Positions 4,398 through 6,274 of a stretch of DNA of 40,401 bases are shown piece by piece. The position numbers were made by a program, and so were the translations under genes. This stretch comes from an uncultured Candidatus Saccharibacteria bacterium (GTDB lineage: Bacteria; Patescibacteriota; Saccharimonadia; Saccharimonadales; Saccharimonadaceae), in contig CAMJLE010000005.1 of assembly GCA_946406665.1 (NCBI GenBank), forward strand, positions 1-40,401, written 5' to 3'. Positions within the stretch are counted from its first letter, which is position 1; every line of letters starts with the position of its first letter. The notes below the pieces were generated by a model. It was not told where the DNA came from. It saw nothing but the letters and a program-made list of their open reading frames with translations, and did no database searches.

Positions 4398-6239
4398 TTA
4401 TTTTTTGATTAACGCTTCGCAATTAGCAATAAGGCGTTCGCGGAAACCGGCGCGGGCCGCATCGGCATTAGCATTATCTCCCTTCCAGGCATTTAGGGCT
4501 GGATCTTGGAGGGCGCGAGCATACGAGAAGGTAACCGGCCATGGGAATGGGCCTTGGTTGGTAATTTCCTGAAGATTTTCGGTAGCCTGAGTGACGCTCT
4601 GGCCACCGCTAAGGAAGACTACGCCGGCGAGCTCGGCGGGAACGTGGGCTTTTAGTACATCAGCAGTAGCTTTGCCGACTTCGGCTGGTGTGGATTGGGT
4701 ATGATAGCGCTTACCGGCAAGTACCATGTTTACCTTTAAGACACAGCCAGGAAGTTTAACCTCTTTGTTCTTAAGTTCCGCAAAAAGTGCGTCGAGAATT
4801 TTGCTTGTGCATTCGATGTTCTTTTCGATTGGATAATCGCCATCGTAGACTACTTCTGGTTCAACGATAGGTACAATGCCGGCATTTTGGCAATCGAGTG
4901 CGTATTTGGCGAGAATCTCGGCGTTCTTTTGGATGGCCATTTCGCTCGGGCTGTGATCGGTGATTTCGAAAGCGGCACGCCATTTCGCAAAACGAGCACC
5001 CATGTTGTAATACTCGGTTAGGCGAGTCGATAGGCCGTCGAGACCCTTTGTCCATTTTTCGTCTGAACCCTCAAATGGCTCGAGGCCTTGGTCGACCTTA
5101 ATGCCCGGAATGATACCTTTACTTGCTAGATAGGTGACGAAATCGCGACCGTCGTCCGCTATTTGGCGGGCGGTTTCATCGAAGAGTATTACGCCATTAA
5201 CATATTTCTCTAGCTCTGGTGTTGTAAAGAAGATGTTACGATAGTCGCGGCGATGTTGTTCGTCGTCTGGGATATTCATGGTCTCGAATTTTTTATGGAT
5301 AGAACCGCCGGATTCATCGGCTGCCAAGATGCCCTTTCCGGCTGCAACAAGCTTCTTAGCGTTAGTTTCTACTTCGTTCATTAGTTCCTCCTTTGGAATA
5401 TGTTTTTCAATACGGTAATAATCGTCGGCAATTTCTTCTTCGAGTGTCTCTAGGTTTGAGCTGGCGCTTAAGATAGAACGCTCCACGTTGGCTCGCGCAA
5501 GAAGTAGCGATTCGTTGGCGGTTTTTCCGAGTACAAGTGCGCCCAAGACGGATGCGCCAATAGTGAGATGTGAGCTGAGATGTGTCATGAGGTCGACGCG
5601 ATCTTCGAGCTGCCAGCGGATGCGCTTGTTGGTGTATTCGATATGATGTGAAGTAATCATGACGAGATTCTTCACGTCCTGATTTAGCTTCATATCGGAA
5701 ATGACCAAGTCGGCGCGATTAATAAGATTGCGCATATAGGTAGCGTTGACGTTACTGTATTTACCTACAAATAGCGCAAATTTGACGGTACGGTGCGCGT
5801 CTAGATATAGCATAATCTCTTCAACGGTTTCTAGCGACAGGTTGGCGCTACGGTCTATATAGAGCCATTCGCCGTCCTCTTCAGGAATATGCCAATCGGT
5901 TTGCATGTATGAGCTTGGACTAAGATAGCTGACATGTCGATCTTGGCAAAGAATGTAGCGATACACGGTTTCGGCGTCTTTAGCGACGAATTGTCCGTCA
6001 ACGAAGTCGGCGTCGGTGCCGGCGATTTTGGCATCAATGCCAAAGCGCTTGAAGACCTCTAGGCTAATACTGGCGCCACCATAGATGGAGACTCGATTGT
6101 AGTATTTGTGGGTTGAGCCGTCAAAGGCTAAATCTAGCCATTTAATATCGTTTTGATCTGTTTCGAAATTGTTTTGGCGATTATCTAAGCGTAGATATAC
6201 GTCTTTAGTAACATTACCAACAATCAGAATCTTGCTCAT
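4398..6239 (-). CDS. PfkB-like (degenerate) domain fused to class I fructose-bisphosphate aldolase
   Basis: Residues about 1-270 resemble the PfkB/ribokinase sugar kinase fold: N-terminal beta strand ILIVGNVTKDVYL, GGASIS at 54-59, and the final helix pattern at 228-255. The region that should carry the catalytic DTxGAGD motif reads MTHLSSH at 218-224, so the base Asp and anion hole are missing. Residues about 287-613 are a complete class I aldolase: KGILAADES (302-310), FAKW with Lys419, VEPEV (459-463), the Schiff-base region LKVNMV with Lys502, and LSGGQS (543-548). Class I aldolases cleave fructose-1,6-bisphosphate by a Lys Schiff base. The ORF is uninterrupted. It starts leaderlessly behind TGCTACAAT (6246-6254). 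A perfect internal SD precedes Met287. Confidence 0.9.
   Translation of the reverse strand: MSKILIVGNVTKDVYLRLDNRQNNFETDQNDIKWLDLAFDGSTHKYYNRVSIYGGASISLEVFKRFGIDAKIAGTDADFVDGQFVAKDAETVYRYILCQDRHVSYLSPSSYMQTDWHIPEEDGEWLYIDRSANLSLETVEEIMLYLDAHRTVKFALFVGKYSNVNATYMRNLINRADLVISDMKLNQDVKNLVMITSHHIEYTNKRIRWQLEDRVDLMTHLSSHLTIGASVLGALVLGKTANESLLLARANVERSILSASSNLETLEEEIADDYYRIEKHIPKEELMNEVETNAKKLVAAGKGILAADESGGSIHKKFETMNIPDDEQHRRDYRNIFFTTPELEKYVNGVILFDETARQIADDGRDFVTYLASKGIIPGIKVDQGLEPFEGSDEKWTKGLDGLSTRLTEYYNMGARFAKWRAAFEITDHSPSEMAIQKNAEILAKYALDCQNAGIVPIVEPEVVYDGDYPIEKNIECTSKILDALFAELKNKEVKLPGCVLKVNMVLAGKRYHTQSTPAEVGKATADVLKAHVPAELAGVVFLSGGQSVTQATENLQEITNQGPFPWPVTFSYARALQDPALNAWKGDNANADAARAGFRERLIANCEALIKK
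5379..5394 (-). promoter_or_regulatory. Internal ribosome-binding site before the aldolase domain
   Basis: On the minus strand AAAGGAGG (5387-5394) stands 5 nt before an in-frame ATG (5381-5379) encoding Met287. The downstream part is 327 aa, the size of a stand-alone class I aldolase. The codons also encode Lys-Glu-Glu in the fusion, so coding use is a possible alternative explanation. Confidence 0.6.
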
Positions 6240-6245
6240 GCTTTC

Positions 6246-6254
6246 ATTGTAGCA
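6246..6254 (-). promoter_or_regulatory. Extended -10 promoter of the aldolase fusion
   Basis: Minus strand TGCTACAAT, with TACAAT at 6246-6251 and a 6-nt gap to ATG 6239. No -35 match is visible, and no SD exists upstream of this start. It predicts a leaderless mRNA. Confidence 0.65.
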
Positions 6255-6274
6255 TAAAAGGATAGCTACGATAT

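Follow-up and report, generated by a model that had tools for sequence, protein, structure and literature searches.

CPR bacteria rarely carry phosphofructokinase (PMC7304191), which raises the question of how Saccharibacteria and other members of the group run and control upper glycolysis without the canonical enzyme. It is posed in an unusual form by an open reading frame (ORF) of 613 amino acids at positions 4398..6239 (minus strand) of the window, the whole 40,401-nucleotide stretch of contig CAMJLE010000005.1 analyzed here, in which a class I fructose-bisphosphate aldolase (FBA) follows a kinase-like domain that lacks its catalytic motif. An earlier note on this DNA had suggested that such a domain could be a sugar-phosphate sensor or allosteric domain of the aldolase.

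The fusion to an intact class I aldolase was borne out, as the frame is single, uninterrupted, and kept in relatives, and residues 289–611 match both PF00274 (E 5.8e-114, 380.9 bits, above the Pfam cut-off) and NF033379 of NCBIfam (412 bits against a cut-off of 250). The aldolase half (residues 287–613, 4401..5381, minus strand) has its catalytic Asp, Lys, and Glu residues in place in the motifs AADES, IKVDQ, FAKWR, VEPE, LKVNM, SGGQS, and ARALQ, including Lys502 (LKVNM, 4734..4736, minus strand), the equivalent of the Schiff-base lysine, and is predicted to be a working class I FBA and the sole FBA found in the genome. The catalytic residues of this half are intact in nearly all fusions. In L098 and L165, the fusion ORF is open with a degraded aldolase tail, from which the Schiff-base lysine is missing in L098, and both halves look catalytically dead (L098:3965-5371 and L165). 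The aldolase halves of L100 and L101 read VESD or IESD for VEPE and have other altered motifs, and their specificity may have changed. An interdomain linker (residues 276–286, 5382..5414, minus strand) joins the two halves of the protein, and the full-length AF2 model consists of two confident domains (pLDDT 90.1) whose relative placement is undefined (pTM 0.59); because their orientation is not fixed, the model gives no allosteric interface.

The N-terminal domain (residues 1–285, 5385..6239, minus strand) has no match at E ≤ 1 in Pfam or NCBIfam, and PF00294 does not reach its cut-off, with no match in the window and matches in 2 of 56 homologues (best E 0.0056). Standard domain libraries thus miss the domain, and as a result, the annotation reads only "aldolase." A search of PDB sequences with a profile of the domain yielded nothing useful (best E 0.35), so its kinship to the kinases is drawn from fold comparison only. 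The structure prediction proposed in the earlier note confirmed the PfkB/ribokinase fold named there, with a confident AF2 model of the domain (pLDDT 90.5, pTM 0.90) that has a ribokinase-like α/β fold with a β-sheet lid, Foldseek matches to ketohexokinase, ribokinase, and the phosphofructokinase Lin2199, and a VIA-align superposition on 2c4e (Z 20.5, rmsd 3.3 over 248 residues).

Within this fold, Asp13 (6201..6203, minus strand), the equivalent of the PfkB sugar-binding Asp (GxxxxD), is invariant in 56 homologues, the GG of the second sugar motif is also retained, and the lid-side residues W34, L35, F39, R94, and Y95 are invariant. The DRTGAGD of intact Saccharibacterial PfkBs aligns in a gapless register with T219-H-L-S-S-H-L225 (THLSSHL, 5565..5585, minus strand), which places Leu225 at the position of the catalytic Asp; the earlier note had also read the motif as dead, in a register shifted by one residue, which makes no difference to the conclusion. 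None of the pseudokinase homologues compared has the DTxGAGD anion hole or its catalytic Asp, and on alignment with intact PfkBs, the NxxE motif and the nucleotide-binding T-D-G-x-x-G segment are gone as well. Judged from its sequence, the domain is a PfkB-type sugar kinase without phosphotransfer (no GAGD, no NxxE, and a shrunken ATP lobe) in which the sugar and lid half is kept. The window does not, therefore, encode a bifunctional enzyme with two intact active sites, as found in the relatives designated g31, since its kinase half is dead. The retained sugar-side residues are compatible with ligand binding, although they may serve folding or dimerization instead.

A search for the same fusion in other Saccharibacteria, which had been proposed as a check, detected it in nearly all of 36 same-genus relatives and in ~60 host-associated Saccharibacterial species with named MAGs, of which a few bear the title Nomurabacteria, and this recurrence rules out both a chance join and an assembly join. 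The fusion is also present in further genera of the same large family of very small, gut-dwelling Saccharibacteria. Across this family, the full-length class I FBAs that were found almost always form the C-terminal portion of such an ORF (exception G430). Four MAGs titled Nomurabacteria (L090, L115, L116, and L117) carry the Saccharibacterial pseudokinase locus and are probably misnamed records. At the loci with flanks covered, most pseudokinases, fused and unfused, adjoin bL25 and/or uvrA. The dead domains all fall on one side of a branch that separates them from the active kinases (support 100/99); the aldolase tree is poorly resolved.

Variants of the arrangement occur in relatives. In the sister genera g31 (L181–L184) and g64 (L162), a class I aldolase is fused to an intact PfkB, and the Pfam families PfkB and Glycolytic are both over their cut-offs. 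These proteins resemble that of the window in their N-terminal PfkB fold, C-terminal class I FBA, and taxonomic family, but differ from it in their DRTGAGDAF motif, in being recognized by PF00294, in their locus, and in having no internal start. The g31 kinase halves group with the unfused PfkBs of the family, and the kinase tree mildly rejects one common origin for the active and the dead fusions (p-AU 0.02, with long branches in play). Together with the other locus, this indicates that fusion may have arisen twice, the intact fusions of the sister genera being possibly a separate event. In the congener G002 (L111), a stand-alone pseudokinase gene shares an 8-nt overlap with that of a class II FBA of PRK07084 type, which is non-homologous to the class I enzyme and performs the same reaction. 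Furthermore, seven genomes that keep the pseudokinase (G330, G288, G324, G233, G312, G326, and G274) yielded no aldolase of class I, class II, or DeoC/LacD type, and two of them (G326 and G274) have no PfkB match either. Absence from a MAG is never certain, but each of the seven genomes is at least 95% complete and they span several lineages, so missing contigs can hardly account for all of these absences. Seen with the class II pairing and the degraded aldolase tails, they connect the pseudokinase with aldolase function but do not make it dependent on that function, and an exclusive role as allosteric domain of this aldolase, as first envisaged, is too narrow. Where the pseudokinase outlives the aldolase, at least one other partner is implied, and since several such relatives retain the dead domain, it probably has an independent function.

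The statement that CPR genomes often lack 6-phosphofructokinase needs qualifying for these bacteria. The canonical enzyme (PF00365) is absent from the window's genus, which has a glucose-6-phosphate isomerase homologue, but a separate intact PfkB is present in almost all genomes, usually one in each, and the missing phosphofructokinase of TM7x has been predicted to be a PfkB encoded in its aldolase operon (PMC12815258). PfkB and FBA genes also adjoin in other families of the order, and from these neighborhoods and the TM7x prediction, the dead domain plausibly descends from an aldolase-linked sugar-phosphate kinase. In one genome of another family (G057, L038:1342-7348), GAPDH, RpiB-like, and Rpe/transketolase-like ORFs lie in a row with an unfused class I aldolase and an intact PfkB, which overlaps the aldolase by one base. 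Several genera have ORFs of ~505 aa (L156, L157, and others) in which an intact PfkB carries an extra N-terminal region of ~170 aa, and a stretch similar to this extension is part of a 418-aa ORF in L038.

Among known systems, the TM7x_02415/TM7x_02420 operon likewise pairs a PfkB-family gene with an aldolase in Saccharibacteria (PMC12815258), a likeness drawn from the published description. Unlike the fusion, its genes are separate and its enzyme is predicted to be active. The IolC-type PfkB kinase of myo-inositol catabolism is fused to an aldolase-like domain and shares the kinase–aldolase design, but its kinase is active and its aldolase belongs to a different family. Retention of PfkB-family proteins for a regulatory or structural role is exemplified by FLN1 and FLN2 of plants. 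These are fructokinase-like PfkB-family subunits of the plastid RNA polymerase (PMC4036507). They differ from the protein of the window in lineage, partner, and process, and have no aldolase fusion. The literature search returned nothing relevant on PfkB pseudokinases, ribokinase-family pseudoenzymes, or a pseudokinase–aldolase fusion in Patescibacteria; the active fusions in sister genera, the class II overlap, the aldolase-less pseudokinases, and the internal start described below are new.

What the dead domain does can be approached through its conservation. Among 56 homologues, 33 of its positions are conserved at 90% or above, with 26 of the 33 within residues 1–131 and none in 181–214, and dN/dS, computed for nine pairs, is well below 1, with values of 0.02–0.05 for close pairs, similar to those of the aldolase half. 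Loss of the motif together with low dN/dS places the domain under selection, though not for phosphotransfer. Decaying baggage left after the loss of kinase activity would fit the missing motif and the very diverged copies of g29 and g42, but it is already disfavored by this strong purifying selection and by the genomes that keep the pseudokinase after losing the aldolase, and can be given hardly any credence. Residual kinase activity through some unconventional catalytic residue is similarly very improbable, since none of the compared sequences has Asp at position 225, position 224 varies (H/Y/R/F/N/D and others), and the domain no longer has the GAG anion hole, NxxE, or the base-binding segment, even though it retains Asp13 and GG. 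An alternative active Asp was considered in unfused forms, where L111, L115, and L117 have an Asp one position before the catalytic place; fused forms do not retain even this neighboring residue. A structural or assembly scaffold that joins kinase and aldolase without ligand sensing, through PfkB lid-sheet dimerization and possibly with the separate intact PfkB, agrees with the invariance of W34, L35, R94, and Y95, the separate PfkB of most genomes, and the adjoining PfkB and FBA genes of other families, but G326 and G274 argue that a PfkB partner is not obligatory, and this explanation is unlikely on the whole. The best explanation, which has about an even chance of being correct, is a ligand- or partner-binding pseudokinase that regulates or positions, as a scaffold, the only aldolase found in the cell, and that has another partner in some lineages. 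Ribokinases pair through the lid sheet, and the domain would either still bind a sugar or sugar phosphate or pair in this manner, and would thereby tune the aldolase as a regulator or place it as a scaffold; a role as sensor is an inference. In this genus, the full-length protein would be made from a leaderless start together with some free aldolase from an internal Shine–Dalgarno (SD) start.

The internal start is an ATG (Met287, 5379..5381, minus strand) at the beginning of the aldolase, 5 nt after the SD-like sequence AAAGGAGG (5387..5394, minus strand), and an in-frame start is kept here in 31/36 same-genus sequences, three of them as GTG, and missing from the other 5/36. Predicted SD pairing is strong at the junction (mean −7.8 kcal/mol). 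Among the 223 other internal ATGs in these genes (mean −0.7 kcal/mol), 222 pair more weakly, but synonymous-codon shuffles come closer (mean −4.1 kcal/mol, per-gene p mostly 0.01–0.2), and the junction exceeds them only modestly. None of 41 genomes contained the exact 16S tail pattern, so the argument draws on the general bacterial anti-SD. Upstream of the full-length ATG, the extended −10-like sequence TATGCTACAAT (6246..6256, minus strand) ends 6 nt before the start codon, and a −10-like box is found here in 30/37 relatives; this typical leaderless layout points to translation of the full-length protein from a leaderless mRNA. Elsewhere in the window, several of the starts at 38, 6239, 9542, 29734, 30212, 37166, and 37792 have a TATAAT-like box just upstream and no SD, and other genes have a clear SD. 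The internal start could, with equal plausibility for and against, be a mere relic of an ancestral two-gene operon, with the fusion as the sole functional product: the separate genes of G002 still show the same SD–ATG arrangement and five same-genus sequences have lost it, but the SD is retained in different reading frames (AAG GAG as KE, AAA GGA as KG), three GTG starts occur among diverged species, and the fused sister genera have no start at the junction position. If the internal start is used, one gene possibly gives two products, the full-length protein and a free aldolase. A tentative extension, less likely than not, is that the leaderless full-length protein and the SD-started aldolase would form mixed oligomers with a variable number of sugar-sensing pseudokinase arms, and that the pseudokinase would also be a free-standing regulator in aldolase-less relatives.

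For the upper glycolysis of these bacteria, the only aldolase found here is bound to a dead relative of kinases that adjoin the aldolase or are fused to it in related lineages. The active fusion, the dead fusion, the dead kinase alone, and the dead kinase beside an unrelated aldolase together form a natural experiment in the conversion of a metabolic enzyme into a regulator.
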